This document shows positions 11,433-59,484 of a stretch of DNA of 64,000 bases, in pieces. Positions within the stretch are counted from its first letter, which is position 1, and the number at the start of each line of letters is the position of its first letter. The notes under the pieces are model-generated. The model ran no database searches, was not told where the DNA came from, and worked only from the letters and a program-made list of their open reading frames with translations. This stretch comes from Gavia stellata (taxonomy: Eukaryota > Chordata > Aves > Gaviiformes > Gaviidae), in NCBI RefSeq assembly GCF_030936135.1, contig NC_082611.1, positions 372,001-436,000 on the forward strand, written 5' to 3'. Both the position numbers and the translations under genes were made by a program.

Positions 11433-13614
11433 CTAGGCTACCTTCATGTAGCAGTTGTCCTCCTGTGCATGGGCTGGTACAAGTTTCATTTTTTTGTCAT
11501 TCTTCCTGTTGTTTTCCATCAAAAGTTCTACTGGTCTTTTTTTAACTGCAGGTGCCAGTCTGGAACCCTCACTGTGAATGGTGTGAGAATCAGGACAGGA
11601 GTTATCCACAAAAAGAGGAGGTGACAACTTGTCCGAGACCAAGAGCTCCAGGGGCTCTGCAGTTTTTCCTTCTAAGTTTAGCCCACTGCTGTCCAGTGAT
11701 TCTTCTGGTAAGCTAGCTGCTGAGCCACACCTCCTGCCCACCACATGCTTTATCACCTCTTTATTTTCCCCTGCACTTCCAAGTTTCCTCAAGTGGTTGT
11801 GTGTATGGCAGTGAAAGTCAGTATTTAGTCTGTTAATGCTGCTCTCTTGCATTCCTTTATCCGTGTAGTTAAAGTTAGTACGTTTTGTCCCCTTTATAGC
11901 TCTTTCACGGCTGTTAAAATCTTGACAGTTCAGCTCTAACAAATGCGACAGCCGTTCATCTCTGCTGGTATTTTCATCTTTGCTCTCACTAGACAGCTCA
12001 TTAGAGTTGATGATCCAAAGGCTGCCATCACTAGTCTGCGCAACATTCTCACTAGAGGCTAAACCTGGGACAATGCTGCAGTCAAAACCCTGTACAGTCA
12101 AACATCTGTGGTCATCTGTCCTCTGGTCAGGTTCACAGCTCATGGTATCTGGAGGTGTTTCTCTCAGGCTGTTGTACAGAAGATGAATGACGGGTTCATC
12201 TAGTGACCTAGAGATAACCACACTGTCATTGTCACAGTATGTACCAATACATTTAACTGCATTATCAAAAGGTTGATAACCAGATGTTTGAGGTCCAATG
12301 GGGCAAGAAATTGTATTGCCTTTCTTTTCAACATTTTGATATGTTACGTGCTTATGTATTTCTTCCTCTGGCAGGAAAGCTGAAGCACTGTCATTTGCAT
12401 GTGTGGAGAAAGATGGAAAATCAGTGTGTTCTGAACAGGTGTTTTGAAAATCAAGCTCAGTGCAAGGAGATCTGTAGTTGGTATAACACGTCTGATTGCT
12501 AGGGGGTCGATAAATTTGATCTGTGCAGCTAAGTTCTGGTGTCTCTGAAAACTGTGCCAAAGGTGGTGAGGAGCACACATTTTCAAAACATGGAGTCAGG
12601 CTACTGTTAGCCACAGACTGAGACATGAGGGTATCAAAGCTCTTGTATGCAGAGCTACTTGGTTCCTTGAACGCAGACACAGGAATATCAAAGCTCTTGT
12701 ATGCAGAACCACAGGGCTCCATGGATGGAGAGATAAGGGTGTCAAAGCTCTTGTAGGCAGAACCACAGGGCTCCATGGATGGAGAGATAAGGGTGTCAAA
12801 GCTCTTATATGCAGAGCTACACAGCCCCATGGATGGAGACACAAGGGTATCAAAACTCTCGTGTGCAGGGTTGTTTATTCTATCTTTTTTGGTCCCAAAG
12901 GATGGTTTATTTGGAGATTCCTGGATCAGAACACATGAGTCATGCTGACTTTCAAAACTGCATGGAAAAAGGCTTTGATGAACCATATGTTGAAGATCTC
13001 TTGCATCCAGAGAAGTAGAATTTATGCTGGAGCTCTGATAGCCAGATTCAAAGGATCCTTCTGATTGTTCTGACTTCTTGCTGGCTGTACTACAATTGTA
13101 GTCATCTTGAGAGGCTTTGGTGAAAAGGGAGACTGTGTAAGAAACACCACATGGCTGCTGACTCTGGGCTGCACTTTCTTCTGGATTTTGCTGTGATGGA
13201 TTTTCTGACTCAAGTTTCTCAAAGGTTTTATTCTCACCTGTGATGATGTCTGGGTCTTTATTGTCTTGCATGTTGTTTTCATCTGCCAGGAGCTCAATAA
13301 ACATGCTAGCTAGTGCATCATTGTGTTCAGTGTGCTCTCTGAAAGCAATGACACTGCTCTCACAAGGCTCAGATATGGGGATCTGGTCACTAGCCTCTTC
13401 CTGGCTCTCAGCCTCAATGTCGGTTAAACATTCACAGATTTCTATAGACTCTTCAACTAGAATTGTCTCAGGGGTTAAAACTGCACTGCTGCCTTTTGGA
13501 AACCACTCTGCAGACGTGCTGTGGCAACTGCAAGATTTCTCAACATTTCTGATATTATCTTTTCCCTTGAAGTTTTGGCTTGATAAACTTTGAGCCAGAC
13601 AGTTCTTGCAACTT
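11433..13614 (-). CDS. IL4R: IL4R last exon, cytoplasmic signalling tail
   Basis: Acceptor CCAAAAACAG precedes 13,614 and the stop is at 11,435-11,433. About 727 residues, low in hydrophobics and rich in Ser, Thr, Glu and Asp, as in other cytokine-receptor tails. It starts C-K-N-C-L (mammalian W-K-N-C-L). Tyrosine motifs in order: G-Y-Q-S-S, four A-Y-K-S-F, G-Y-Q-P-F and L-L-Y-N-S-L. The upstream in-frame Met at 13,631 lies in the intron and is not the start. Confidence 0.94.
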
Positions 13615-16600
13615 CTGTTTTTGGAAGTCAAAAGGAAAGGACAGTTAATGTTTATGTAATAGGAAACTACTTTATGCTGTAAAGCAGAGGGTTTTTTTTC
13701 CTTTATCTTACTTACATTTGGTTTTCCATGTGACTCTGCTTTAAGTCATGGAAAGGGAACTTAATTTCATCAATGTAGCACAAAACTGAAAACTAATAAA
13801 GATACAAATGAGATTTAGAACACATGTGAATTGTATTTAGTATCCCCTGCACTAGCCAGACAATAGCACTTATTACATATTCTACTTCTGGTGATCAGGA
13901 AAAGATATTTTTTGCAAAGCCTTTAAATTACCTTGACATTTTTTACGACCAAATGGCTCTTTGCTGGATTTGGGATTTGATCCCACCATTCTTTCTTCAC
14001 TCTGCAAGGGAAGAATTAAAATTGTTTGCTTTGACTGCATTTTGGCTTCATCAGTGTACACCTCCCTCTTTTGTTCTTCTCTCCCTCTTAGCCATCTGCA
14101 TTGCAGCAACAGGAAACGCTTGTTCTGTGCATCTCCAAGTGCTGCTTTTCATTAAACTAGTGCAAAGATGTTTGTATGTTTGGTGCGTGACTGCTCTGCA
14201 CAACCACAGTCATATGTTCTTCTAATCATGTTTGAAATGATGTGAGAAACAGATAGGATCCCACTTTCACATTACCACTAAAAAATGTAAAAAGAAATAC
14301 AGATATTTAACCATCGTTACTGGAACTCCATCAAAGACTGGGGTCCAAAACTGACAAACCCCATAACTGCAGCCTGTTTTGGATGCTGTAACAAGCCCAT
14401 TCTAGTAAGATTAATAGAGAATATTCAGTTATCTGTTCAGAAAATGACAGAGTCAACTCATTCATGTTTATAAAACATTTGCTCATAGAGAGCAAGATAA
14501 AGGTGGTGAGGAAAAACAAAGCATTACATTCCTGTACGACTGGACATTCAGCTAATCAATAGGAATACTGGTATCTGTGCAAACTGCTACCCTATAAAAC
14601 CTGTGAACAGCATGATACATACTTGGTAAAACCGAAGTAACAAATTACAGATACTGCCATGATCAGTATGCAGGATATGGGAACGGCCATCTGCAGAATG
14701 TCTTCAGCTGTTACTTGGTAATCTGTTAAATAAACATACATATTTAGATGTGTATGTGCGTAGAAATACAAGTACTGGCAATACCAAATTCATTGCTCTT
14801 CTTTTGCACCTTAAAAAAAAAACAAAGCTCCTTGAGAGGATGTAAAATAAAGCCTCCAGCAGATAAATAACAGAACATACACAGCTACCAGTGGTGATGG
14901 TGTGTGGCATGTCTGAAAGGTCAATGCAGGTACTGCAGTCAGTCACTGTGAGTGTTAGGAGCTGGGAGAGCCAACGTGTACTGTGTACTGAGGCCGTTTG
15001 TCAGCTCTCAGGGACAAGCCTGTCACACAGTCCCTAAAATGGCATTATCATCTCCATTGTAGTGCAGCTATGCCTCTTGCCTTTCTGTTGCTCTTCACAG
15101 ATTTTTATAAGTCCTCAGCCCTCTGACGGTTGAAGTATTACTTAATTTGCAGCCTAAATAGCTCTTGTACATTTATACCCGCTTGCTCTTACGTCAATGT
15201 TGTTCTTTAGTTTAAATATCTCTTCTCCTTCCCTGGTGTCTCCTTCATGAAATATTTATAGAGAATAAACACATCCCCTTTCAGCCTTTTTTTCACAAGG
15301 CTAAACAATACAACTTCCCTTGGTCTTCTCTTCCTTAGTTTCCCCAGGAGCTGCCTTTTTACGTCTCTTCTCTTTGGAAGCCTTTACAGATGTCTCCACA
15401 ATAGATTCAAAAGGATGAAGATGATGATTCCATAACTCTCCTCTGAGAGGAGAGAGGCAGGGCATATATGATATGGTTTATAAAACGATACCATCCTTTT
15501 ATCAAGCTGCTATTTGTTACAATACTTACCACAGTGAAATTCAACTTCTTCACTCCATTCACTCCAGTAGGCCGGATAGTCTGTATAGTTACACCTTACA
15601 CTTGCAACATAATCATAGCCTCTCCTCAAGGAGCTTGCAGTAATTTCAAAGCTTTTTGCCTTGTAGTTAATTGCTTTTACAGAAACCTGAAAAGAAAGTG
15701 AGAAAGTTCACTCTTGATTTCTTTATGAGGTGAAGGGTTAGTGACAGCAATTAAGTAACACCAGTGTTACATGTTTCAGTGACCTTTCAGAAATGAGCAA
15801 ATGAATGACTCTATACCTAATCTGCTGTGTGTGATAACTGTGTTTTGTTGTCATTAGCAGGCAGTATTTGTGACATGCCACCATGCATGTTCTTCCCCTA
15901 CCAGAAGAAGCCCAGCCCTTAAGTGCTGCATTGTTCAGGAGGGTGTCTGAAATGCCTCAGGTGCGCCACAGAGTCCTGAACAGCCTCCAGCTTCCTGATG
16001 TCTGAGGAGCAAATGAAGTCCAGGGAACAGAAGCACTGTGTTTTCAATCTCCGCCCTGCCTACTGTGAGCAGCAGATCATTTTGGGGTGGCAGTCAGAAG
16101 AGTTTCAATCCTTTAAAGCCCAGCTGAACCACCTTGTGGCAATGTGACCTGTGGCAGGTGTGTGATCAGGAACATTGTGGGACTTGTCCTGGCTGGCCCT
16201 TACACCATTATTCATTAAATGTTTTCAAGACTTTTCAGAGGATTTTTTAAACCTGAAAGCTCCAGAGAGACAGAAAATGAAGAGACTGGCTGTCTCTTAC
16301 CTCTGTTGGGTGCTGCTTCCTCCAGTATTTCACTTCATAGATGACCGGCTGTCCATAGAGCATGGATGGAGGAGAGTAGCTCTCCTCCCAGCTCAGATTG
16401 AAATTACCATTTTCAACTTTCTCAATGGTAAGATTTTTGGGGGCCCTTGGCTTAACTGTATGTTAAAAAATACAATTAAGGAGAACATGGCAATGGGAAA
16501 GCATTGATGGAGAGAAGCAGAGAGACAAACATTCACCAGAGACCAGAATCTCATCGCAGTCAATGCATGGAGCCCTTTTCACTATGCTGTAGCACAAGGA

Positions 16601-19600
16601 TATAGAGGCCAAACCAGAGCAACTGCGAGGTATTCATTAACAAGCACTGAATCTTCAAGCTGGCTGAACAAACTGCAAGTTCAACCTTTTGGTGCACTGG
16701 ATGCAGCTTTCAGCCTGGAAAAATGGGAACAACCTCCGCCCTCACAACAGCATGCTGTGCCGCGGGGTAGGCACAGAGCTTCTGACAACTTCACAGCCAG
16801 GCTGTCCCGGCTACCCGTCTCTTAGAAACTGATGCAGGCTCCTGCTTATTCTGCTGATAAGCAGCAGTGACAGTCAAGTATTCTGAAAAGAACCAGCTCA
16901 TCAATGCAGATGAATGCCTGCCTAAGGTATGTGAATGATTTCTCTGAGTGCTTGAGGTGACAAGTATTATGAACAAGCACACTGTTCTAAACAAATGAGG
17001 CGCCTAAAGAGAGACATGAACTGTATCTATCCTCTATCCTGTGAAAGAGCAGAGTCATTAACTTTTTATCACTGGTCGTTATAATCCAATAGCAATTGCT
17101 GTAAAAATCTCTGTCAGGGGGATGATTCAACTAGCATGAAAAATCAAAGTAGAGACACGAATGGAAGAAATTTCAGTAGGCATAGCCTAGCGTCTTTCAG
17201 GAAACTGGAACTAGCACATTCCTCTTCATCCTTGAGTTCTACAGCCACAAGTAAAATGCACTAAAGACACGTCTAAGCCCCCAAGCTACTGCTGGCTGGC
17301 AGCTGGGAGGCTACAGCTAGAGGAAGAATCACTCTCTGCTTGCCCCGTTATTTATACTCTTTCCTTAAAGAGTCTACCCCAGAATCAGGTTTCTAAGCTA
17401 AATGGATTTTGCATTTAAGCCAGCTTGGCACTTTTCACCTCTGATAAGGAAAAACTGTTCCAGTGACACGAATGAGGAGATAGCTAGGATTGCAAAGCCT
17501 GGAACCAGATGTCCTAGTGACAAAGTAAACAGTTTCTTACCAACCAGGGCTGGTGTAACACTGTAATTCCACATAGCAGTCCCATTGAACTGTAGAGCTA
17601 GAATATAGGTGAGGCCCGATACAAAATAATCTGGACATATTGTGCAAGTGCACCTTAAACTGTCTTTTCCATTCTCAGGGACACACACGTGATTTCTGAA
17701 AAACAGGCAGAAAATTATGTGATGTTTAGAGTGTGGCACACTATTTCTTGAAAGGGTGAAATCAAGCTTCCCAATGGGTAGTGCTAATCAAATCCGAGAC
17801 AACCAAGCTGAGTTCCTAGAAACGTTTAGCCCAAACAAATCTAAACCAAAACTGAGCTCCCCCAAACTCCCAAACAACCCACCCTCCCCAAACACCCCTT
17901 GGATATCTGTATCACACAAATGAAAAGCTTGACAGAAAGGCTAAGGATTGATCCCAAGAGGACAAATTAACACCCTTTGTCACACTTCAACCTCTGAAGG
18001 AGCGGACTGACAGCTTGCTAGTATAGGAACAGGATTACTATAGTGTACGAAGTGAGGTTATTTGCATGTCTGTGTGGAAAAATCATATGGAGAGAAACAG
18101 GAGAGCCCAGATGCATCTTCCTTTGTAGGAGGTGACGACTGGCCCTGCTGCAGGACGGGGACAACAGTCTGTGCTTGAACATGGAGTTAAACTGTATGCA
18201 GAGATAATCACCTGGGCTCTAGGGGAGAGTACCTTTCACAGAGGGTACAGTCTGGAAAATCAGGTAAGATTTCTCCTGAAGGAGGTAAAATTTTGCATGA
18301 AATGAAGATTGAGTAAACTTATGAGAGCCCCACCACTCCTACAAGTAGAACTTGATCACTCCTCTGTACTAAGAGTGCAGAGAGGTCTGCAGAAGAGTAG
18401 CCCACTGAACAGAGTATGCTGTTAATTGCAGCAACCCACGTTCCTCCTGGCAAGAATAATAATCTGGATTACTGTTTGTCCCAGACACCCATGGCAGAGG
18501 GGGGGAATCAAAGCTGGTAATGGCTATAGGATATACGAAGTTCCAACAATGATAATGTAACATCTTAACACTTACGGCAGAAAAAAAAATTCCTTCCTGT
18601 AGTAGAGCAGGAATTCTTTGGAACAATTTGTTTGTGCAGGCACCTTCCAGTGACAAATCAGCTCTTTGTCATAGTCAGTGAAGCATGCAAATTCCTGTGC
18701 ATGTCCTGCAGCCATAACTAGGGAGAAGCAGCACGCAATGAGAAGAGAATCAAAATAATAAATTGGACTAAGCAGAAACATTAACTTTTCCATCTAAACA
18801 GAGCTACCAACCCTCTATATATTAAGTGAAAGCATTGTTATTTTTCATGTTCTGGGTAAATGGAAAGAGATGCATGTCACCAAAGGTCTCCACCTTTCTG
18901 GAGACAATGTCTACGGTCGTGGAGAGGAAGAAGGACTGCAGTAGTAATATTGAAATAGAAAGGCACAACTCATCCAACGCAGTCTTCCAAGCATAGAAAA
19001 TCTGATTGTGATAGCTCTATCTAAAATACATCAACATTTAATTATAAAACAGCATCATCCTATGTGTTAAATACAAAAGGTTCAAAAGCCAAAATGCAGA
19101 TAATTAACAGAGTCAGACCAAGACCACTGCCTACACGAATGTACTCATGCTTTATCTACAATGGTTCTAAGCTTCCCAAATGCATGCCCTCTGCCTCCCC
19201 AGAGCAGTTTGCCATCACCTAGATGATCTTCCTGTCACAGGCTTCTAGTATACACCTTTTCTTAATTTCACTCTGCATTTCCTGTTCTGTCTTCTCTACT
19301 TTTCATTGTTACGATAGTGTTTGGAGACCTGGAGAGATTTAGAGTCACATTGTTCCAGGCATTGAGAGGGTACAGAAAAGCCCAAAGTCTCTGCACTCCC
19401 CATGTCGCGTCTACAATCTCCTTCACTGGCAGTATTTAAGGAAAAAATAGAAAACATTGGTCAAAATATCCTTGTTAGAACTGGAAAGGGAAATGGAATA
19501 CACAATCCTCAGTATCCCTTCCAGCCTCATTTTCCGTTATTTCAATGCACTCCACATGAGTGAAACAAGGAACAGGAGAGGAGGAGCTATGTGAGAGTAA

Positions 19601-26989: not shown

Positions 26990-29000
26990 AAGTCCTCTTA
27001 GACTCCACGCGCAGTGGGGGGGGTTTCACAGCGCGAACTGCGGGACTCGGGAAGGGCTCTGCAGCTCCGAGCAAGCGCCGCGCGGTGACGGCGCCGACGG
27101 CGGAACGCGGCTGCGGGCTCCAGCCGCTCCTGCGGGGGAGCGCGGGCAGAGGGCCCGCCGTCCTGCGCCCAGCCGGCAGGACTTCCAGCGGGGAGGGCTT
27201 TCTGGGAGCGACACCAGTCTCCTCCCAACCGCCTTCAGAGGCACACCCCCAAGGACGGGCCCCGCTGCCAAAGCCAACGCTTCCGCCGACTCGCGGGCTC
27301 CAGCCGCGCCCGAGCCGCCCCGTCCCGGGACGCGCCGGAGCCGAGCGGCGCCCGCGGCGCGGGGGTGCCCACGGCCGCGCGAAAGGGCGAGCGCGCCCCG
27401 CCGCCCCCGGCAGCTCCCGCCCCCCGCCCAGCATCCCTGCGGGGCCAAGCGACGTCTCCCAGCGGTAACCGGAATTCTGCCCGGGCCGTCCCGTGCCGCC
27501 GCCGGCCCGCTCGGCACGGCAGCGCCTGCCCGCCGCCTTCTCGGGCCAGCTCAGGCTGCTCCCCCGCCCGCCGGGACGGCCGCCGCAGCGGGGCCGGGGG
27601 CGCGGAAGAGCGAGCTCCTTCTCGGCACCGGGAGCAGACCGGCAGACGCCGCGGCAGCCGCGAGGCGAAAACCGTGCGCAGTCAGCCCCAGCCACAGTCA
27701 GGAGGAGCCGCGGGGGGTACCTTGCCTGGTCTGTCTCGCGGTCGGCGCGGCGGGCTCCCGAGCTCCGGTGCGGCCCGGGGCGGTCCCGGCCCCGCGGCAC
27801 CTGCGGGTCCGCCCCGACGCGGCGCCGCGCTCCCCGGATCTGCGTCCTCCGCGGCGGCAGCGCGGCCCGGCCCGGCCCAGCGCTGCGGACCACGCGGGCA
27901 CGCCCCGTCCCGCCGCCCCCGCTCTCAGCGCGGCGCCGCCGACGCCGGGCGGAGGCGGCCGAGCACGCGCGACGGCCCCGCCCGGGACGGCGGGGAGGCG
28001 GGGCCGAGCCCGGCTGCGGCTGCCCGCGGGGCCGCGCCGCGCTTCCGCGGCGGGAGGAGCCGCCGCACCGCCGGGGCCTGGCGCGGCTTGCGGGAGGACA
28101 GTGGGGGCACGAACCCCGCGGCCGCCGGCCCGGCAGCGCCCTTCCGCGGCGGCGCCACTCGGCCGGGCCCCGCTCTGCCGGAGCCGCGGGGGACGTTCGT
28201 CTCTGCCGCCGCCTCGGCGCAGGGCGCGATCGGGACTGGGCCCACCGCCCCTCCCGAAACGGTGCAAAACAGGCGGGGGACGCCCCCCATAGCGGCCCCA
28301 ACGCGGGGCGGGGCGGCGCCGCCCCACAGCAGCTCGTCCCGGGGCGGGGCCGCCCCCCCCAGCCGCCTTGTTCCGGGCTGGGGCCGCCGCTGCCGGGCCC
28401 CGGCCCCGCCTGCCGCTGAGCCGGCCGGTGGCAGGCGCGTGCAGCGAACGCCGAGCTGCCGAGCGTGGGGGGTCAGCGGCGCCGCAGGCCGGCGGGTGAG
28501 GCGGCCGGGGGAGCAGGGGGTCGGGCGGCCCGAGGCCGGGGGCGGCGGGGGCCGTTTCTCGACGGCTGCCCGTGGCTTCACCCGCGGGCTGCGCCGGGCG
28601 GCAGGCCTGGGGCCGAGCGGGCGGTGACGAGGCGGCGGCCGGGGCAGGCGGGAGCGCGGGCAGAGGCCGCCGGTCGCTCTGCGAGCCTGCCCGAGGAGAG
28701 CTGCCGCGAGCTGGGGCGGCTGACGAGGGCGCGTTTTGGCGCGTCCCCTTCAGCAGCTCCCCGCGCGCCGCAGCCTCAGCAGCGAGTCCGCGCCGGCAGC
28801 GCCCGCCCCGCGGCAGCTCCGGGAGCCGGGGCTGCGCTCGGCCTCGCGCCTGGGCCGGCGGGAGCGGCGGAGGGCAGCGGGCCGGGTTCTGTTCCGCCGC
28901 AGCTTGTTCGCTGGCCCGGTGCTGCTGGTCGGAGGCCGTCCGTGTGCCAGGGCGGAGCGGGAGCGGGAGGCTGTAAAAGCGGGGCGCAGGCGTCGTTTCT
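26990..29000. promoter_or_regulatory. CpG island shared by IL4R and NSMCE1 (head-to-head)
   Basis: About 2 kb of very GC- and CpG-rich DNA with abrupt A/T-rich flanks on both sides. Its long overlapping open frames on both strands, rich in Arg, Ala, Pro and Gly, are by-products of base composition. NSMCE1 departs rightward and IL4R leftward, so one island probably serves both. A donor-like CGGCG|GTGAGG at 28,496 on the plus strand could end NSMCE1 exon 1. A donor-like GGCAAG|GTACCC at 27,720-27,719 on the minus strand could end the first IL4R exon. Neither transcription start can be placed from sequence. Confidence 0.8.
28486..28500 (+). promoter_or_regulatory. Candidate donor of NSMCE1 noncoding exon 1
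   Basis: The NSMCE1 start-codon exon opens with an acceptor, so a noncoding exon must sit upstream. GGCG|GTGAGG at 28,495/28,496 is the best plus-strand donor I see in the right half of the island. Other GT sites in this GC-rich DNA remain possible. Confidence 0.3.
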
Positions 29001-29528
29001 CAGTCTGGTCAGTTCTTGGCCCTTTGGCTTGGAGCAGTCTGGAAGCTGCTTTTTCCTTGTGAACTGTTAACGATCGTTTGGCTGCAGCGGTCAAGGAGTT
29101 TCTTGACATGCTTTTAATTTAGCTCTGATGTTCTTCAGAACATTTCGAGGAGGATTTTCTGTCTGAAGTATGTTACACTCTAATTAGGCAAGTTACTAGG
29201 ATATGCAGTGAGCAGAAGCATCTAACGCAGACCTATGCAAGGTATTCCGTTGATTGTTACACACACGGCGCTATTTTTGGTTTGGGGATGTGATAGCGCA
29301 ACGCCTATGTTTTATTCCGTAGCTAAAATTAGTTGGACTTCATTTTTTGCATCCTTCTCCTAGAACCTTGGAGTTAGTCACCATCTGTATTCTGAGAACA
29401 ACCTGGGGGATCTGCTTTTTTGCCCTGATTCAATGTTAGAGAGTTTAATTGAAATCTTCTGTTGCTTGGACTGCGTATTTTTAATTTGCATGAACATGTG
29501 CATTAATTCCAGCTTACACCTCTTGCAG

Positions 29529-29672
29529 CACTTGAAGCCTGGTGGAGTATTGCGATGGCAGCTCAGATGACTGATGCTCATCGACGGTTCTTGCAGGTCC
29601 TGATGTCTCATGGGATAATGGAAGGATCGGAGGCTAGGAAATTACACAGGCACTGCTGTGAAATCCATAAAG
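29529..29672 (+). CDS. NSMCE1: NSMCE1 exon with start codon
   Basis: The acceptor CACCTCTTGCAG ends at 29,528, the start codon is at 29,555 and the donor is ATAAAG|GTGTGT after 29,672. It encodes the first 39 residues, including [12 protein letters not shown] and a following H-C-C-E-I-H, and ends in phase 1. An 8.5-kb intron follows. Confidence 0.94.
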
Positions 29673-32600
29673 GTGTGTCTCTCTTTTGGAGAAACAGTAG
29701 GGAGATGGAAGAACTATTTTTTTTTTCCTGGTGCAGCTTGCAAATGATTAGATTTCTGAAAAGCATACACCATCTAAAAAAAAAAAGTTAAAAAACTTTA
29801 ATGATGTGAGTGTTCTCTCTCTTTTCTGGAAGATAAAAATAACACAGCAATGTGGAAACTAAATTTTAATCAGGTCAGACTCATACAGAGCACTTTTTAT
29901 TTCAGCAAAGATGTTTTTTATAAGTTATACATTTAAAAAAACCCTCATTTTTGACACTGATAATGCTGAAATTTCCCAAATGTTTTCCTTCATACTTATT
30001 TGGAAAGATTTCCTTTGGAATATAATATGAAGTGTATGCTGTTATCCATCTTGAGTAAATCTGTCACATCTGACCAATTACATGGTCAGCTGGTTAGTTT
30101 TAATATATGTCATACCAAGCTGAATTTTATGGCACATAAAACAAAAATTTGGTTGTATACTATCAAATCTGTTTGAAGTTCATGTTCGAACTTAAGTAGT
30201 ACAGAAATATGTAATCAACTTGATAAGGATTTTTTTTCAGAGATCTGCTTACAGATCAGAAATCTGTATTTAATCTTCACTAATTTTGAAAATGTGGTGG
30301 GCACAAACCAAAATAAAGCTGTAATGAGTAATGTATTTAGCACTAATTAACCACTAGGTCTCAGATGTGTCAGTTGCTGGTTCCCAGAAAATAGTGAAAG
30401 AATAAAATCTCTCTATTTTCATCTTCTCCTTGTTTATGAACAAAATTGAAAAGGACAAGGAATGCGTAAGAACAAAAAGTGCTATTTAAAAGGAAACACC
30501 CAAATGCTGTTCAAATTAGTGATTTTAAACCATTACTATTGAAAGGCAGATAACGCCAACAAATGGTTAAATTACACATTCTGAGATCTAATACACACTG
30601 AATATATGTCTCAAGTTATTTCCTAGTTCTCTAGTATTTATGACTTTAAAAATAAAAGCCTTCTTAACAGTTATTTGAGGGGTTTAGTCAGTTCAGGATA
30701 TCTGTGTGAGTCTGTTAGAGAGCTGAACCAGTAACTGCAGGGGAACTGAACTGTTCAGTTGCTGGTGGCTAACCAGGGTGATAACTTTAGTATCACCATT
30801 GCTAACTAGTCTTCCTCTCTGTTAAGAGAGAAGAGACTGTAGTTGCTGGTGCGCACAACCTGTTGAACTCCATCTTGCTTTGTTGCCACAAGTGGAGTCC
30901 TTTCTGGGCGATGGCACTATTTATGTATTTTCCTTAGTCAAAAGGAGTCAAACGGACTCCATAGGTTTTCAAACTCTTGAGCCAAAAGAGCTTATTTCAG
31001 CACCTGCCCAAATTACTGACTGAAAAAACAGAAGCGTGGAAAAATAACGTTGCTTTTTACAGGTTTAATCCTGTATTTGTGAGAACCAAGCCACTGTGAT
31101 TTGTAAAAGAATTTATCATAAATGCCAGAGATGGCCTAAGCCAATAGCATGGCTATAATGAGTTTATTGTGCGCTAAGAACAAAGAACCTTAAGACAAAA
31201 AACTTAACAGCTAGATCATGTTTTCAGTATGCAGGATCCGTGAGCTGTACTGCAGTAAGAGCTGATAGAGTTATTTTTCATTAGGAAGGTCTATTTAATA
31301 GAAGGATTCAGAAAAAAATGGCTCCATTGCAAATGCTGCCTACCAAGTACTTGATATTTTTTCTGCATAGTGACAGTTGATGTATAATGGAAAAGTTTGT
31401 GAAATTACACAGATACAGTGTGCGAGTTTTAACTGTTCCAGTTTTATTAAATGCTCTACCTAGGAAAGCTTTTTGTCATGTTGGGAGACAAAAGTATGTT
31501 GAACTTGACTCACTGGATGGAACGCTCCCCCCTGCATTTGTTTTGGGAACAAAAGAACCAGTGATTTGACAAACCCATCCTTGTTAGGGGTAAAGTTAGC
31601 AGTACCACAATTTAAGAGATCGTGGTACAGCATTTTTATGAGGAAAATCAGCTGGACTGGACTGTTTCTAGATGAAGTTCTGATTTGGATGTAGTTTCTT
31701 CAATAACATCTTAATACTGCTTAGTGCAATCTGAACCATGTTTTTCAAATTGGATCAAAGCTAATGTTACTAAAACTAGCTTATTTGAATTAATTCCTTT
31801 CTCCTGCAGGTTGTAAGCATTACATAACAAAGCTGTCTCCTATCTATGACACTGGTTTCCTTAAATACAAAAGGATAAAAAAGCTGTGTCAAATGAAGTC
31901 AAGTCATAGAGTAACCAGCCTGTGCAGCCTCTGAGCAAAGTGATCTGGAAACTTTCCCTCTTGGTGTTCAGCATGTTCTCTTGTTCTGGTTTACTTCAAA
32001 ATCCTAAGCCTTTTGGCAAGGAGACGCCTTCTTATTTTTTGTGTATCACCTGCATGCTTCTTGTTCGCAGACAAGTGTCTGTGCTGTAATCTGCACACGG
32101 GTCTGAAGGAAAGCTCCAAACATCTATCTAAGTGCTGCGTAGGACCACTAGAAAGTGTACCATTCAGTTATGATACAAATTGCAGGCTTGTTGAGGAAGG
32201 TTATTATAATCACTAATACTTTTTTACTGTAATCCCTTAATGCATGCTCTTTCTGTCTGCATTGTGTTATGGCTTCTGCAGTTATGGAACATGTTATAGT
32301 AAAAACTTAAGTGCGAAGTTAAAGACATCTTGCAGATCTCTAGCGTTATATACTAGCTAAGGTACCACGACATTCTCAGCACCCTTTCTGGGGGGGCTTT
32401 GTGTGTTGTCCGTAGCTGGCTTTCCCTTTGTTTGTATAGTCAGGGAAATGGTAGTATCTGAGTTGGCAATTGCTGGACCCCTTTACAAGACACTATCTGT
32501 GGGAGGAGAATATGTAGTATATTATCCTGGCCCTGACCCCAGCCTGAAATCAGGAAACAGTAAAAATAGGAGAGTTTGTAGTTATTTTTCCTGCTGTCTT

Positions 32601-35600
32601 CCAAGCCAGCTGAAGTTTTTCAATAACTGAAGCTCTGGGTTTACACTACTCTGAGTAGTACAGCTGGAAAGATGGTGCCTCTCCCCTGGAAAACACATTT
32701 CTGTCTGTAATAGCACAATTTTTTTTTTTTTGATCATGGAATAAACATTGAGATTCATGTGCTCTCTATCCCGTGATAGGTTTCCAAGTTTATCTGTTTT
32801 TTCTTTGATTCAGCACATCTTCATTTGACGAGCATTTAAATATAACAATATTAGGCATTTTTGTGACCAGCGTTTAATTTTCCAAAGACATGGCCATTCA
32901 CAAGTGTTTTCTTTGCCACATTCTTCAAGGCCAGAAGGTTAACAGAAAACAAATATATTTTATTTTGCTATATTTTTCATGAACCTAAGGGTAATTTGGA
33001 GGGATAAAATCAGGTTGCCTTTCAAACCAACGGCCGTATTTACTGAAGGACAATATAACGTAACATTTATACAATTAATTATAAAATGTAACTGTATATT
33101 AACTTACAGTGAGGTTCACTAGAAAAATGGCTGATGCAGTCCATATATGAAAGGATGTTTAGAAAAATGGAAGAACGAGAGAAAACTGCTTTTTTCCTGC
33201 CTATTTGGATGTACGGAAGGAATGTATTGATTAACCATTCATTAACGTGGATCAGTATCAGACTGGCTTTTGTCTAACTGTTTTGTATTTTATTGAATGG
33301 GCTTGGTAGCTGAACTCAGAAGAAAGTAACTGTTAGTGTCAAATTTAGTCTACAGTCATACCAATTTCTTAAGCATAATATATTTCGTGCTTGGCTGTTG
33401 AAAGACCCACTAAATAAATTATATAGGAGAAACAGGGATTCATAGGAAGACAAGCATTTTTGCTTTATATGTTTTGTATGTCTTTTAGTACTTAGTATTC
33501 TAGGAGAAGCCCCAGCAGCTGCTCCTATATGTGACCCAGTGTGCTCATTATGCTTGTACCTTGTCTGCAAAGTTCAGCTAGAGCTTAGGGGAATTTTTCT
33601 TATTTGTGGTGGAATTTGCAGATAACCATCTGTTTGAAGGCTACGTTTTATGTTAGCAGAGAAGTGTTTGCATTGCAAAACAACAGAAAAAGCCACTGTA
33701 CAGTTGTTTTGATATTTTGCTTTATAGTGCATCAAATATGTCAAAACTAGAAAAAGAAAGCACGGCTCTTGGCTCCTCAAACTAGGTATTTTTGTGTAGA
33801 CAATGAAGAATATCACAAGGCACCAACAAAAAAGGGACTGGGGAAGATCAGTGGGAGTAGACAGCGAGATCACACAATTCCTCAGCAGTATTTTGCTATA
33901 GCGTAGTGAATGCTTTTAAGTAAATGCACTTCAGTTATTCCTCTTAAGTGTTGTGGGAGACGTGAACGCTGAGGAAATGTTCTGATGAAGATGAGATGAG
34001 GTTTTCTGGTGGATGGCTGTTCTTTCTCCCATCTCATCTGCATCATGTTGCCCATTACTAGTTCTGGAAGCCATGCACCTGCAGGGTTAGTGGTATTCCT
34101 GTATCTTGTCGCAATGCTACCCACTCTACAGGGACTCTTCTGTTTTTTCTGTGGATTTGTATCTACTTATCCACAGAATTTAAGGTCAGAATGAAGTAAT
34201 CTGTTTTTGTGTCCCAAGTAACGCAGGCCATATTTTCTGCTAAATATTTTTTGCTGCATATTGGATGACTTGTAGCTGGATTGAAACATAAAATGTAGAG
34301 AAGCTTATCAATTACTCATTTAGATATTCTGGTAATGAAGACTGACTACACCCCTTGGGTCAAAATTCAATACTCCCTGTGTTAAGATGACTGAAAAAAG
34401 ATGGGCTGTGTCAGTCTCAAGTTGTACTGAACCAGCATTGTGGCAGAGTGTAGGTGTTAGTCATCGCTCAGGTAGTGGGTTAGTGGTTACACTTTTAAAA
34501 CTGAAGTTTTGGCTATGAGTCCTTACCGAAGTTCATTAGAACTTTTCAAGTGTATCAGCATTGCAGTGCTGGTGAAAATCCATCTGAGCTGTTTGAATAA
34601 CTGAGTATTTTCCCTCGCTAAACTCCTCTGCAGTCTGATTGGTTTTGTTCTAAATCGTTGCGTTGCAGTACGCTACTAGAAGCAGCAACTTACTCTTCTT
34701 CCCAGTGATTCTTTTTCATGGGAAGGCTGAAACACGTGTCATAGATGTATGTGTAGAAAGAGGTTTAATGTGAATGGTTTCATACAAGTTTAAAATAATG
34801 TAAAGCAGGATACATACAAAAAAATTAGCAGTGAATGACGTAGTCTAGTCTACAATTCAAATATCATTAAGCTCTCTGAGGTAGGGATTGCCTGTTTTTA
34901 TGTATTTATGTATAATACTTTGTGCTATTACAAGGAAATGTTCTGGCTTGTTTTTGATGTTTAACAGAAGAAAAAAAAGGTATTGTACAACATGTTGTTG
35001 CAAAGTGTAATTAAGAATGTTTTGTTTTTAAAAAACTTTGTAAACAAACGTTTAGATTCTCTTACTGGTGATGGTCCTGTTGCTTCAGTTTTTTCTAGCT
35101 ATAATAAAAGTCAGATGGCAGCATTTTCAAATCCTGATAGGGAGCTTCTTATTATATTAATCATCTTGGTACTAAGAGTAACTGAAGGAAATGGGGGAAA
35201 AAAAAATCCAAACACCACCACGTTTTTTTCCTCAGTTAACTTTTCTGAATGTTTCATTCTTTTAGTCTTCTGTGAAATGAAAACTGAGTATCAGTGACTT
35301 AAAATCCAAAGTAATTTGTCATGTTACTCTTCATGGTTTATTCTATTTTTATATTTAATTCTAAAGTTTGCAAACTGACTAACTCTATGCCAAAAGCCGT
35401 TGTACAGTTATTAGTTCTTTAAATATGGTTTGATCTTGAAAATCAGCTGTAAATATCAACACCGGTCCTTAGTGGCTTATATTACATCTGCTCAGTGTCA
35501 TCAAAGTAGAAGAAAAACATGACATTTTTGTATTGCTACTTTGCAGACTAGAATTGTACTTAATCTTCTGCTTATTGAGAACATAGAAGCTGAAGTACGT

Positions 35601-38600
35601 AGGTCTCTTGCTGTAAACATGGGAGCTCTAATTCATAACAGTGCCAGTCTTTTTAAACTTATCATGAAGCTGTGGGATCTCAGACTAATCTAAGTAATAA
35701 AGATTCCTATTGTTCACTTGTCTTTAAGCAAGAAAGTTTAAAAGGGTGCCTGTTGAAAAGTGGTAATTAACGAAGAGTGTACGTTCGTTTATTACGCTAC
35801 CTTGCTGTTTATAGTTTGCATACAGACACATTCAGAAAAGTTTCTGGTTTCTCCGAGTACCTCTGCTTTATCTTCAGTGAGGGCTCTGTTCAGCTTTTCT
35901 GTGGAAAATATTTGAGTTTATTATTAAGAGTTTGCTTAAATTTAGGAAAAAAAAAACAAAACCAAACCCCAGGATATTTGTGTTCCATTTATTTACTGTT
36001 TGCTGTTTCCTATTTGCTCATCTGCTGTCTGTCACTGAACTGCAATAATTTCATCTAAAGAAAATGCTCCCAAGCAGAGTTCTAGGCTAATACATAATGA
36101 GTGCTCTTTCTAATGGTGTCATGTGTTACCTTTGTTAGGTGTTCAGGGCTGAGAATTTTTTATTGACAGAAAAAATAATACCTGGTTCCTGCATATACTT
36201 GGTTTTAAATGCTATGAACAACTTTGTTGTGTTCATAATTGGGTACTGGAATAGTGATTTGCTTTAACTTTATTTGACTGAAACCAGTTTACAGTAAGTA
36301 CATCTGTGATACAGTATTAGCTGAGATTGCATTTTATGCCCTAGAGAAGGAAATTATTTATTTCTGTTACAAAAAGTAATTTACAGCAATTGCAACTAAG
36401 TCTTAGATTTTATTTTATTTTTTTGAGGTTCTGCATTTTACAGGGGAAGTTATTGGAAATTAAGATTTTTCAAACAGTTTAATCCAGTATTTTGGAAGTA
36501 GGGTAGTCCTGGCTCTAGTATGCATTTAACATACTCATGTTACAACAAGGTCTTCTTAAATACAGTCTTTCAAAGTAGTATTGACACCTCTGAGATATTG
36601 TACCAGAAGAAAAAAGGACAAAGAGATTCCTGTACATGTGTAGTTGGAATACAAAGATTACTGAATGAATATCATGCTAGTTTGTCTAATTTATCTTCAA
36701 ATCTGTTAACACTAAATAACTTGTTTCCAGTATATATGAATTTGAATAAACAGTTTCTGTCCAATCAGTTGCTATGGCTGCCTGTACAAGAACTGTTTCA
36801 TAGAGGTGAGTTACAAGCTTTTGCAAATAGTAAAGGACAATTTCTCCTGAGTCTGGAATTGTAAATTGACCAACTTTTTAGATGTTAAAATTGTTAAGTG
36901 TAGCTTTTGGTGTGGTCTGTTCCTCGTTCATTTTCTATGCAGGATTCATATCCCCTTTTTTTTTTTCACAGATCATCTACTAGAGCAGCCATTAATCTCA
37001 CATTTAAACGTTACAGCTGTTGTACTAAAGAATATTCTTCCATTATCTTTCATCTTGCCCTCTTTCAGATCTGTCATTAGCGCTCCCTGGCTTTGATGTA
37101 TGCAGTGTTTCCTGCTGACAGGTGCCAGGGAGGTGGCATGACAATTTAACAAAATTATGCTTCCTTTAATATGATACCTACTTTATTGTTGTTCTTGCTG
37201 TTTGTTGGTTTTGATATATCAGAATCATGAACGTTCTGGGCAGGAGCATCCTGTGACTGATGTTTTTGCATTGTACTACACTATAAAGTATAGTGGGGTT
37301 TTGAGAGTGGGACCTGTGTCTGACGCTGTTACACAAGTGATTGACTCTTATAACTGGGAATGGTATTAAGTTAGTGATAACTGGTAGTATTTTTGAGACA
37401 TCAATCCTTTTTCTAAAGTTATGAGCTGATACTTCACTCTTTTTTTTAAACCCTAGCCTGCTGAAGTCAACAGAAGTTTTGCCACAGATATAAGTTTGTT
37501 TTGAATGGAAACTCTTGAGGGCGTGTGCTCTTGACATCCGAGCAAAAGCCATAGCACGTGCTTCTACAGAATGACTCCAAAGTCCATCTTAATTATGTCT
37601 ATGATAGACCTTCTGCTAGTATTTGTTTGTAGAACATGACACAAGATATTACCTGTATTTCTACAATGCTAGAGTTTTAAGTTTTCTGGTATGTAACTTG
37701 ATCATTTACATGCCATTAATTTGTGAAACAGAACACAAAGAAACAAGGAATCCCTTGTGTGTAAATGAAAGAAAGCAAGTATGTATTTGTATTGTGCATA
37801 ATAATTTTTCCTTGTCATGTTTTCTTTTCTATTCAACTTAGTTCAAGTCACTGTAATTAATGATTAATGCGGTGGGTTTTATACAGCGAGGCAGAATGTC
37901 TGGACTCTCTCTCTAAACTCTGACTTTCAAGGAGCTGAGCTTCTCTGAAGGCTAGTAGTCAGCAGCACAAGAAAACGATATGTCTGCTGAATATACAAAC
38001 CTGTTTAAATTCTGCCTCACTAAGTTTTAGCTCTTTTACCGAGGATAAAAAAATGTTTCAGCAGATAAATATAAAAATATCTGCCTGATATGTAGTTGTT
38101 GGGGTTTTTTGTGTATGTGCTTTTTCTTACTTATTTTCAGTCTACTATGCACATGATAAACTGGATGATTTCATCAGTACTATTAACAGCCATCTACAGC
38201 CTTTGTTTATGCAGATCCGGAAAGGACTGTCGGAAGGTCATGGGAGAGCACATTATGCTTTAGTAAGTATGGGACGTGCTGCCATCGCGTGGTTTGGCTT
38301 TTCATGACTGAATGCGTGGATGGCAGAGCAAGCCTCCTGGGTCTCCTACTGAAAATTAACCTTTGAATAATGTGCCAATAAAAGGTCTCCACACCTTCTG
38401 ATTGTAAATGGGCAAAAAAAAAATCTAGCTGTATCTGTGCGTAATAAACAGAAGGCTGCCCTCAGTGCCATCTTTGGATGTTAGAAAGATTGAGTTACCT
38501 AGGGTCCTTCCTACAGTATATCGATAATAGAACTGCTATTTGGAGAAAACAGGATCTAGAACCGAAGACTGCATGTGCCAGCAGGCTTCTTACCCTTAGC

Positions 38601-41600
38601 AGTGTCTTGTGTGGTTTATGCGGGGCTGTTCCACTGTTATGCTGGTAGCTGCTGTAGAAGCTACTTGTAGAACAGGGAAGTAGGAGGATAAACTGCCAAC
38701 AGCCTAGATGCATGGAAATGGAACATGGCAGCAAGGGCTACAGCAGCGTCTGATTTATTTAACATAAACATTGTGTAAGTGCTGAAGTGAGATTTCTTTT
38801 TCAGAGGAGACTTTCAAGAGGAATTTTTAAGTTAGAAAACACGGAGAGCCCTCCAATGTTAGTTTTCTTTTTCTCTTACTTAAAAATCAACCTACCATAA
38901 AAGGGTTGCTATGGAGTGGCCTATAAAGTTTCCCTGGATACTCTGAAATGTGCATGTCAGAGATGGAAGATTATATAGTAATTTCAAAAGACCATACAGG
39001 AGGTATTCTAACATTAGCTGCTGCTTTTAACCTTTTTGGGTCATTTTCCCAATTAAGTTGAGTTAGTATTAAATAGAAGTAGCATGTGCAATAAGAACAT
39101 GAAATATCAGTAACTGTTTCTCACAGTGAAACAAAAATGTGTATTATAACACAGTCACTGCTACTGTCCAGCACAGTATCCTGGTGTAATGTATTAGTTC
39201 TACTGGGGGAGGTGGGATTGTGTAGGACCTTGGCTTGGGCAGAGGCAGCTGTGGAGAACATGTGGTTGGAAGATCAGGCATTTTAAAGAAAGGACTTGAG
39301 TACCATCAAGTGCCATCTTTAAGGAACAGTCTCTTTCATGCCACTTAAAGAAATGACGTTTCTGTTACTTGTAAGATGATGTATTCTTTACCCCAGAAGA
39401 TGCTTTACAGTTTATGGTGTAGAAATACAAAGGCACTTTGATTTCAGTTTAAGTATTTTTTTTTTTTGTAGGTGAATTTGGCAGAAACTGAAATAACTAA
39501 AATGGCATCTGACTATACAGAAAATGAATTAGAATTGTTCAGAAAAACAGTAAGTATGTCAGTTATTAGTTAGTAAGTCACATTATTTGTGAAGGTACCA
39601 TCTTAAAATGAATGGAAATGGAAATGAATGGAGATGTTGTTCAGGAAATAGTTGCCATCTTACCCATGTTTATCCCAAATCGAATGGGGGAGGCGGGGAT
39701 GGGAGTATATGCAAGGAATGATTGCCTGTTGAAAGTCAGTTATTGGTAAACTGAAATCAGCAATAGGGGAGTGCTCCTTGGAGTTAGTGACTTGATATAT
39801 GTGCTTTCATATCTGGATTTTCAGTTCTGATTGCTGAATTCTTCACTGGCTTCAGTAGTCTAGTAGTATACTGTAGATTTTAATGCTAGCAACATACAAG
39901 TTGGATTTCCTGATATGAATAGAAACATTTGTCCATTGTTACTGGTTAGCCAAGGACATTTGATGTTTAATTTCTTATCCACAGCCATTAATGTGAGTTG
40001 TGATCATAGGATCATACGATCATATGTATATGATCATAGGATCATACGTATCTTGCATGTTTTAGTGAATTGTTCTCATAGTGTCTTGAACTTTGAGGAC
40101 TTAATTTCTCCAGTCACTAGACTTTTTAGGGTTGTTTTTATTTTTCAAATCCATAAATTTTTCTGTATAAACTGGAAAGAGAGGTGTATTGACTATTCTG
40201 TGACAGCTGCAAAAGTCTAATCAACAGGGATAGTACCCAGAGATTTCCCTTCTCTCCCCCGTTACTGGTGAAGCACCTATACAGCCACGTCAGCACTGCA
40301 GAGATGGTGGTGTTGTGGCACATATTACTACTGGCATAAAAACTCTGCATGCTGCTCTGTGATAATGAGCAGCAGGAATGTTTCCAATGACAGTTTCTCT
40401 GAAGATTGGTAATACTGCTACAACCTTCAAGTGCCAGGTAAATTCAGCAGTACTAATGACCCCAGAGTAGACAAACTTAATTTAGTAGCGAGAGATTTTT
40501 CCTCAAAAGAACCTTGACAAAGAGCAGATAAAAAGAAACAGATTTGTCACCCCTGAGTATGCTCAAGGGCCCCTGGATGCAGCTTCATTTAGGCAGCACT
40601 CTACAGTTCTATTTGTGGAAATACTTTCTTGGCAAAGATTAAAACTGTCAAAGTAACAATGATTGTTTCACCTTTTGGCCTTCGTTTTACAGTTCTGGTT
40701 CAAGACATATACTGTAGTATATTTCATATGCATGGATGCTAAAAAAGCTGCACATTACTATAAGGTGTGTCTATCTAATTGCATGGATTTTTTTAATAGT
40801 TGAAAATGTTTCTTTCTGTAGATGGACCTAATCATTTTATCAGAAAATGGCTTTGCCTCTTCTACAGATATTTTAAACTTGGCTGACCAACTTAAGACAA
40901 AGAAAATGAAGAAAAAGGAAGCGGAGCAAGTGCTGAAAGTTTTTGTGGAGGATAAGTGGCTCTCTGAGGTAACTGCTGTTATCTGTTCAAGTATTTGTAT
41001 TTTAATAGTTCCAGCTATTATTTTCTTATGGATGTGACAGCTGAAACTGGAGCTGTTCTTTAATGAATGATGGCAAAAATGGTTTTGTGGGGCCTGTGCT
41101 TATTGCTGCTCCAGTGATTTTTGTAGAAGAGGCAGTATATTTACAAGGAGAAAGACCTTGGGTAGGTCTATACAGGACAACATGGTTTCAGTCTCGTAGC
41201 TGTGTGTACAGCCCTGCATTGCGACATACAGACATCCTTTTTACACAACAGCATGACATACTTAAACTTGGAACAAGAGCTGGGGAAAGTTCTTCAGGGT
41301 GATCAGTGCTGTTAGTTACATTTAGAGTATCCTGAAAAGCAGTGAGGCCAAACATGTTGAAAACGCCTGTACCAGAAATGCATGGGCCACTGTGCACACT
41401 TTTGAATCTCCTTACTTCATAGGGAGAAATTGAGATTAGCTTACCACGTGGACACTGCAGTTTCTTGCCAAGACAAGTAAGACCTCAATGCCTTTTCTCC
41501 TGGATTCATTGCATCATAGATCTCCAACCTGCTGCCACACGTTCACTTATGTTAGAGTGATTTAGCAGAGATTTAAAAAGATACCTCAAGCGGTAAATGC

Positions 41601-45179: not shown

Positions 45180-52056
<6,877 letters not shown>

Positions 52057-52712
52057 GGCAGCGCGCCTCCACCGGCTCGCCGGCCTCCGCGGCGCGGCGT
52101 TGCCGGGCCTGGGCGGGCCTCGGGGGGCAGGCCCCGGCGGGGCGGGCCTCGGGGCGCGGGTCCGGTCCGTGGGGCCGAGCGCGACCGCGGCTCCGCCCTC
52201 CGCCGGGCCGCCTGTGCGCCGGCGGCCCGGCGCGGCCCGGCACGCCGCTGCTGGGTAGCTCCGCCCCAGCGGCTGCGGAAGTAGCGTTGGCGTCGCGTAG
52301 CGAGAGCGGGGGTGCCGCGGCGGCTACGCCCGGGGCGGAGGGCCCTCGCGGCCCGTGGGGCCCCCGCCGCGCGCTGCCCGCGCCTGCCGCGGGTGGGCCC
52401 TGCGGGGCTGCCGTCGGCTTCGGCCGCTGCCGCGGCGGGGCCCGTCGAGGTCGGCGGTGGCCGGCTGGCGGAGGCGCGTTGGCGTCGGGTGCCGTTACCT
52501 CTTCCTCGTACCTGCCCCTCCTGCCCTGCCGCCGGCAGCTGGTCCGTGGGCTGGCGGAGCGGGCGTTGCGTCGCGCTGCTCTTTACGGTGTTCTTCAGAG
52601 CGCGCTTCCAGCCGGGAGTTTCTCGGCGGCTGTGAGCCGGTGCCCGGGGTGCCGCTGGTGGAAGAGCGGCCCCGCTCACGGGGGCCGTTCCTCCTTGCGT
52701 TTGTGCCCTTAG

Positions 52713-58404: not shown

Positions 58405-58758
58405 GATCAAAAGCCCAGCTAGAGCTCTATCTGGCCACAGTCATAAGGGATAACAAAAAATGTTTTTAAAAATATATTAACAACAAAAAGAAAGTCAAGG
58501 AGAATCTCCATCCTTTACTGGATGCGGGGGTAACATTGTCACCAAGGGTGAGGAAAAGGCTGAGGTACTTCATGCCTTCTTTGCCTCAGCCTTTAATAGC
58601 CAGGCCAGGTATCCTCAGGGTATTCAGCTCCCTGCGCTGGAAGACAAGGATGGAGAGCTAAATAAACTCCCCATGATCCAGGAGGAAGCAGTTAACGACC
58701 TGCTATGCCACGTGGACACTCACAAGCCTATGGGGCCTGATGGCATCCACCCAAGGGT

Positions 58759-59484
58759 GTGAGGGAGCTGGCAGAGGCGCTTGCCAAGCCACTCTCCATC
58801 ATTTATCAACAGTCCTGGTTAACGGGGGAGGTCCCAGCTGACTGGAGGCTTGCCAACGTGACGCCCATCTACAAGAAGGGCTGGAAGGAGGATCCGAGGG
58901 ACTACAGGGCTGTCAGCCTGACCTCGGTGCCGGGGAAGATTATGGAGAGGTTCATCTTGAGGGCGCTCACAGGGCACGTGCAGGACAACCAAGGGATCAG
59001 GCCCAGCCAGCACGGGTTCATGAAGGGCAGGTCCTGCTTGACCAACCTGATCTCCTTCTATGACCAGGTGACCCACCTAGTGGGTGAGGGAAAGGCTGTG
59101 GATGTTGTCTGTCTGGGCTTTAGTAAAGCCTTCAACACTGTCTCCCACAGTATCCTCCTGGAGAAGCTGGCGACTCGTGGCTTAGACAGGTGCACTCTTC
59201 GCTGGGTAAAAAACTGGCTGGATGGCCGAGCCCAGAGCATCGTGGTGAATGGAGTCAAATGCAGTTGGCGGCCGGTCACAAGCGGAGTCCCCCAGGGCTC
59301 AGTTTTGGGGCCGGTCTTGTTTAATGTATTTATCGATGATCTGGATGAGGGGTTTGAGTGCTCCCTCAGTAAGTTTGCAGATGACACCAAGTTGGGCAGG
59401 AGTGTTGATCTGCTGGAGGGTAGGAAGGCTCTGCAGAGGGATCTGGACAGGCTGGATCGGTGGGCCAAGGGGCCAATTGTATGA
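58759..59484 (+). pseudogene. CR1 reverse transcriptase remnant, frame A
   Basis: An open stretch of 241 codons covering reverse-transcriptase motifs: [38 protein letters not shown] and F-A-D-D-T-K-L. Motif A reads L-G-F-S-K-A-F-N-T where active CR1 has Asp at both changed positions (codons at 59,116 and 59,134). The catalytic motif A Asp is therefore lost although the F-A-D-D box remains. The Met at its start follows a frameshift and is not a real start. Confidence 0.9.

Follow-up and report, generated by a model that had tools for sequence, protein, structure and literature searches.

A tandem array of AYKSF units in the IL-4 receptor tail of Gavia stellata that seems to correspond to the single human I4R site

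The cytoplasmic tail of the IL-4 receptor (IL4R) of Gavia stellata carried a tandem array of five in-frame 54-bp units in the last coding exon of the gene. By its position and by the NPA residues of unit 1, the amplified module seems to correspond to the human I4R site, Y497. The tandem multiplication of an I4R-type site appears to be new, whereas the receptor and its I4R and STAT6 docking sites were already known. We tentatively favour, at slightly below even confidence, the explanation that the array arose from a single I4R site, that its copies now serve as extra STAT6 docking sites beside the SGYQPF motif, and that docking of IRS and Shc at this position was weakened or lost. The window is the whole stretch of DNA analysed, 64,000 nucleotides of contig NC_082611.1 (positions 372,001 to 436,000).

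The IL4R gene and its neighbours

Two exon frames on the minus strand matched the Pfam family IL4Ra_N (PF09238) above its cut-off. The following frames were assigned to the gene:

18572..18793, minus strand: first half of IL4Ra_N (Pfam, E = 1.2e-13)
17398..17787, minus strand: second half of IL4Ra_N (Pfam, E = 1e-14)
16247..16462, minus strand: fibronectin-III-like ectodomain exon frame (Pfam fn3, E = 0.00048, below its cut-off)
15510..15707, minus strand: frame bearing WSEWS, read by eye, with no relevant Pfam match
14592..14789, minus strand: apparent transmembrane exon frame, with no Pfam match
13923..14015, minus strand: frame of the juxtamembrane box 1 region, KKEWWDQIPNPAKSHL (human KKEWWDQIPNPARSRL), with no Pfam match
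11433..13614, minus strand: last coding exon of IL4R, encoding the greater part of the cytoplasmic tail (726 aa, SCKNCL to YMKVA) and the stop codon, from the open frame and the human alignment

We take WSEWS to be the WSXWS motif of class I cytokine receptors, and the frame at 14592-14789 presumably resembles the human IL4R transmembrane segment. The box 1 region was read by eye as KKEWWDQIPNPA. The last exon was contained in a 770-aa minus-strand open frame (11433-13745), and an acceptor AG lay immediately upstream of 13614 (by eye). For comparison we used the human IL-4R alpha tail printed in Table 1 of PMC7444064 (excerpt). Global alignment of the two tails scored 157, while 100 shuffles gave a mean of 12.1, a standard deviation of 19.9 and a maximum of 56.5. 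The tail had no significant match among PDB sequences or Pfam families, and none of its 11 pattern matches among bacterial and archaeal genome contigs was related. When the assembly (1.32 Gb, 1185 contigs) was searched with the tail, one match was found.

Two further genes were recognised in the window:

51211-52323 and 45180-47792, minus strand: KDM8 exon frames with N-terminal ARM repeats and Cupin_8/JmjC pieces (Pfam ARM_KDM8_N, 2.7e-15; Cupin_8, 6.4e-15)
29507-43166, plus strand: NSMCE1-like exon frames (zf-RING-like at 43008-43163, 3.7e-09; SMC_Nse1 at 29507-29788, 0.024, below cut-off)

NSMCE1 and KDM8 are, as we take it, neighbours of IL4R in the human gene order. The IL4Ra_N exons, the alignment with the human tail and the KDM8 and NSMCE1-like neighbours supported the identification of the tail-bearing gene as IL4R, as the initial annotation had named it. 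Between the IL4R exons (minus strand) and the NSMCE1-like exons (plus strand), a stretch of 2 kb at 27001-29000 reached 77-83% G+C, with flanks of 42-44%, and may be a shared CpG-rich promoter. Reverse-transcriptase-like frames were found at 58741-60179 (plus strand) and 61897-63376 (minus strand), with an RVT_1 match of 4.2e-27 for 58741-59481; we take them to be, probably, CR1 LINE fragments.

Structure and history of the array

Tandem Repeats Finder reported one array, at 12620-12868, with a period of 54, 4.6 copies, 81% matches and no indels. The repeat finder, the codon register, shuffles and a DNA profile placed the array and its units as follows:

12606..12875, minus strand: tandem array of five 54-bp (18-codon) in-frame units, 270 bp
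12822..12875, minus strand: unit 1, NNPAHESFDTLVSPSMGL, I4R-like NPAxxSF with H replacing the tyrosine
12768..12821, minus strand: unit 2, CSSAYKSFDTLISPSMEP
12714..12767, minus strand: unit 3, CGSAYKSFDTLISPSMEP
12660..12713, minus strand: unit 4, CGSAYKSFDIPVSAFKEP
12606..12659, minus strand: unit 5, SSSAYKSFDTLMSQSVAN, with which the global alignment paired human AYRSF

AYKSF was present in four of the five units, and unit 1 read NPAHESF. The claim of five 18-residue in-frame units with four copies of AYKSF was thereby upheld, with the units at 12606-12875 and free of indels. In the best window at lag 54, 169 of 216 bases agreed; 2000 codon shuffles of that open frame never exceeded 91, which puts the array far beyond chance. 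A DNA profile built from the five units recovered those five in the window; the next match had an E-value of 0.1, outside the inclusion threshold, and this profile found no further or decayed units above threshold elsewhere in the window. A plus-strand open frame over the array (12570-12938) was taken as a by-product of the 54-base period. The longest exact match at lag 54 within the array was 50 bases, which replaces the 43 identical bases previously given for two units.

The units had diverged unequally:

12699..12806, minus strand: most recent duplication or conversion, in the register starting at the K codon (12753-12806 against 12699-12752, 53/54 identical)

The sole difference within this pair was a silent GCC/GCA change, and identity in the remaining pairs, over the five registers within the array, was 30-43 of 54 bases. 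Since two successive units were 53/54 identical in the best register, one duplication or conversion was recent; gene conversion would leave the same pattern as a recent duplication. If neutral sites are assumed to change at 2e-9 per site per year, one difference corresponds to about 5 million years (interval 0.1-26), and rates from 1e-9 to 3e-9 gave 9 to 3 million years. Of the ten pairwise synonymous distances in the codon register, nine were 0.67-1.53 and that between units 2 and 3 was 0.31; because they rest on 11-12 sites, the array is not closely datable. The in-frame period of 54 and the one recent step agree with the annotated origin of the array by 54-bp duplications. Old divergence together with one recent event would be the pattern expected of an active minisatellite, as judged from one assembly.

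In units 2-5 the SAYKSFD core showed 0 nonsynonymous and 10 synonymous pairwise differences (104 and 22 sites summed), and three of its seven codons were silently changed. The spacer of the same units showed 45 nonsynonymous and 24 synonymous pairwise differences (151 and 47 sites; pN 0.298, pS 0.511). When unit 1 was included, the core had 12 nonsynonymous differences, as unit 1 departs at three of the seven positions. Across units 2-5, the amino acid varied in 10 of the 18 columns and the codon in 13, and the longest invariant amino-acid run was seven (p = 0.004, 100,000 permutations). Constraint on the SAYKSFD core is supported by these four units, whose pairs are not independent.

These figures bear on the explanation that the array is a neutral or near-neutral coding minisatellite that grew in a disordered tail through slippage or through unequal exchange, and whose extra copies add little as SGYQPF suffices. 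We consider it unlikely. The many amino-acid changes in the spacer and the copy without tyrosine in its motif are in keeping with it. Extra sites may also be redundant, as any one of the three human STAT6 sites suffices for recruitment, independently of the I4R motif (PMC5962649, excerpt). Against it, SAYKSFD was invariant in four units despite the silent changes in its codons, and all five units were in frame.

No comparable array was found in the literature on chicken or bird IL-4R and STAT6 or on tandem docking sites, among the matches listed and by title and start of abstract, and a search for the string AYKSF gave only a Streptococcus paper. In galliform IL4R, site-wise signals of positive selection have been described, and the diversity in chicken was alternatively attributed to domestication and admixture (PMC3224688, excerpt); the words "repeat" and "indel" were absent from the main text of that paper. 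The available parts of PMC4690019 and PMC3296744 held nothing on the bird receptor tail.

Correspondence of the units with human docking sites

We took Y497 to be NPAYRSF, Y575 to be SGYQEF, and Y603 and Y631 to be the remaining GYKxF sites of the human tail. In human IL-4R alpha, IRS2 and Shc dock at Y497, and STAT6 docks at Y575, Y603 and Y631 (PMC8442009, excerpt). The human I4R motif with NPXY spans residues 488-502, and NPxY is recognised by IRS PTB domains (PMC5962649, excerpt). The order of motifs was NPAYRSF, SGYQEF, GYKAF, GYKPF, VYSAL and TYMRV in the human tail (sequence from PMC7444064, excerpt) and NPAHESF plus four AYKSF, SGYQPF, LLYNSL and CYMKV in the Gavia tail. Three motifs of the Gavia tail lay downstream of the array:

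12267..12281, minus strand: GYQPF (in SGYQPF), counterpart of the human STAT6 site Y575 (SGYQEF), by alignment pairing; score over -4..+8 of 38 with Y575, against 17-26 with the remaining three sites
12165..12182, minus strand: LLYNSL, resembling human IVYSAL (Y713) by motif
11439..11456, minus strand: NCYMKV, counterpart of the human C-terminal TYMRV, by alignment

We regard LLYNSL as ITIM-like. This is a reading from the motif, because in the global alignment LLYNSL fell opposite the human Y603 region, where the tyrosines do not line up, and not opposite VYSAL.

The global alignment placed human SGYQEF on SGYQPF and human AYRSF on unit 5, not on unit 1. Over positions -4..+8, the ungapped BLOSUM scores of unit 1 were 32 with Y497 and 5, 16 and 12 with Y575, Y603 and Y631, respectively. 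Units 2-5 scored 24, 23, 20 and 27 with Y497 and 25, 23, 12 and 28 with Y603, respectively. As the scores of units 2-5 do not by themselves settle the homology, the correspondence with Y497 is drawn from unit 1 and from position. Five residues of the I4R site (N, P, A, S and F) persisted in unit 1, where H stands for Y; this unit alone had the letters NPA-x-x-S-F, and the array preceded SGYQPF, the Y575-type site.

Downstream of the tyrosine the likeness was different. Over +1..+7, units 2, 3 and 5 scored 19 with Y603, 14-17 with Y631 and 12 with Y497, while unit 4, which had lost the TL after the core (DIP), scored 8 with Y603 and 9 with Y497. Unit 1 scored 14 with Y603 and 9 with Y497. Because this tyrosine-less unit also has the downstream likeness to Y603, that likeness need not be an adaptation that followed duplication. 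Homology of the array with Y603/Y631, favoured over +1..+7 by units 1, 2, 3 and 5, was set aside because of the NPA in unit 1 and because the array lies ahead of the Y575 counterpart. The initial annotation had taken the multiplied module for a mammalian STAT6 tyrosine; position and the NPA of unit 1 point instead to Y497, and the counterpart of Y575 is the separate SGYQPF.

One NPxY was present in the human tail and none in the 726-aa Gavia exon, because unit 1 (NPAH) has H in place of Y and units 2-5 (SSAY or GSAY) have SS or GS in place of NP. A single transition in each codon separates AAC CCT (NP, unit 1) from AGC TCT (SS, units 2 and 5), and one change separates CAC (H, unit 1) from TAC (Y). 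PTB domains of IRS or Shc might still dock on the units, in which case the array would multiply the I4R function and not replace it. In its favour, both the location of the array and the letters of unit 1 indicate the I4R site, of which A (-1), S (+2) and F (+3) were retained. This explanation is highly improbable, since the NPxY core that IRS PTB domains recognise (PMC5962649, excerpt) occurred in none of the five units and nowhere else in the exon.

Predicted docking and comparison with known systems

The STAT6 consensus is GYKxF (PMC5962649, excerpt). In engineered receptors, NPXY did not activate STATs and the STAT6 motif was nearly specific, with blots of n = 1 (PMC11685922, excerpt). The Gavia exon contained five matches to Y[KRQ]xF, namely the four AYKSF and GYQPF; outside the array GYQPF was the only one, compared with three human GY[KQ]xF STAT6 sites. 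Four of the five units had Y with K at +1 and F at +3, which fits the YKxF of the STAT6 motif. Glycine at -1 was found in none of the five units, all of which had alanine, while G at -1 was present in the three human STAT6 sites and in Gavia GYQPF.

The genome encoded a STAT6 SH2 domain, whose two main pieces, on contig C36, covered query residues 41-97 (74% identity with human) and 1-43 (84%). With weaker STAT-like matches on contigs C28, C8 and C36, the search yielded a total of 10 up to E = 10. With residue numbering that we set from R562, E587, I589, F592, R605 and L609 were unchanged between bird and human, and so were D596, R600, D604 and D608. The first five of these, together with H585, were named as STAT6 ligand contacts in a model (PMC3320567, excerpt); position 585 in the R562-based numbering was Q in both human and bird. 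The STAT6_C family (PF14596) had no match in the genome, an absence that carries no weight because none of 14 controls was matched either. Within ~1883754-2007578 of contig C36, a weaker STAT-like match (E = 0.66), perhaps STAT2, lay ~123 kb from a STAT6 SH2 piece; STAT2 and STAT6 are close together in mammals (PMC3296744, excerpt).

A reader for Y-K-x-F exists in the genome, and by motif likeness the AYKSF units are predicted to bind it. AYKSF may nevertheless bind neither STAT6 nor IRS/Shc, because the near-identical human AYRSF is counted among the sites for IRS2/Shc, not those for STAT6 (PMC8442009, excerpt). This assignment is the main reason for doubt about STAT6 binding.

Under the explanation that we favour, the founder would be the single I4R site of the receptor (Y497, NPAYRSF), which normally recruits IRS/Shc PTB domains. 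In-frame 54-bp duplications would have copied this site together with its spacer. One copy would then have lost its tyrosine (to H) and kept NP, while the other copies would have kept Y and lost NP (to SS or GS). The four Y-K-S-F copies match the +1 and +3 preferences of STAT6, and three of them resemble Y603/Y631 downstream of the tyrosine. Most likely, the AYKSF copies would be phosphorylated after IL-4 or IL-13 and would supplement the canonical SGYQPF with further, partly redundant docking sites for STAT6. IRS/Shc docking at the position of the array would be weakened or lost.

Signals of the form Y-x-x-hydrophobic are linked to AP-2, and the units could be unphosphorylated sorting signals of this type, with copy number setting internalisation and surface level. 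All four YKSF copies fit the internalisation pattern Y..[LMVIF] given for cytokine receptor tails (PMC7444064, excerpt), but the pattern does not discriminate because the human STAT6 sites fit it too. The invariant core also reaches past YxxF to S, A and D. Such signals would be compatible with STAT6 docking, and as an explanation of the array we find them quite unlikely. It is very unlikely that the phosphorylated units dock another SH2 protein, such as SOCS or another STAT, mainly for feedback. SOCS and STAT patterns are common in such tails, but K at +1 misfits the loose SOCS2/3 pattern pY[AFILVWY].[AFILVWY] and STAT5 Y[VLTFIC], and F at +3 misfits STAT1 YxxP and STAT3 YxxQ (PMC7444064, excerpt).

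A stronger version of the STAT6 reading would have the IL-4 receptor rewired: its only IRS/Shc site would have been amplified and converted to an SH2-type STAT6 array, IL-4/IL-13 signalling would run almost wholly through STAT6, and its gain would be set by a repeat number that is still changing. We hold this to be possible but, on balance, doubtful. In mammalian work, the IRS and STAT6 arms of IL-4 signalling are separate docking sites on one tail. If the copies bind STAT6, duplication of a site and a few transitions can shift a receptor from PTB to SH2 docking. Signal strength would in that case be set by copy number, and the array would be a natural test of whether the number of docking sites tunes type 2 immunity.

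The array lies in the same gene as the human I4R site (Y497) and, like it, ahead of the Y575-type site; unit 1 has the letters NPA-x-x-S-F in common with it, and the other units A-Y-[K/R]-S-F. Gavia differs in having five copies instead of one, and none of its copies has both NP and Y, so that the PTB-binding core is missing. With the mammalian STAT6 sites (Y575, Y603 and Y631; GY[KQ]xF) the units share the tyrosine, the +1 lysine and the +3 phenylalanine; units 2, 3 and 5 are also similar to them in the stretch that follows. Those sites are dispersed singles with G at -1, whereas the Gavia units are in tandem at a spacing of 18 residues, have A at -1 and occupy another position in the tail.

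The 48-bp exon 3 VNTR of DRD4 (dopamine D4 receptor) has a known copy-number polymorphism. Like the Gavia array, it is a short coding minisatellite that repeats in frame, lies in a cytoplasmic portion of its receptor and carries protein-binding motifs. DRD4 is a G-protein-coupled receptor with proline-rich motifs, unlike the IL4R array, and the Gavia array is known from one assembly. The engineered receptors likewise carry tyrosine motifs in a JAK-bound tail and indicate that the IL-4R alpha STAT6 motif works outside its own receptor; they are man-made (PMC11685922, excerpt), whereas the tandem array of Gavia is natural.
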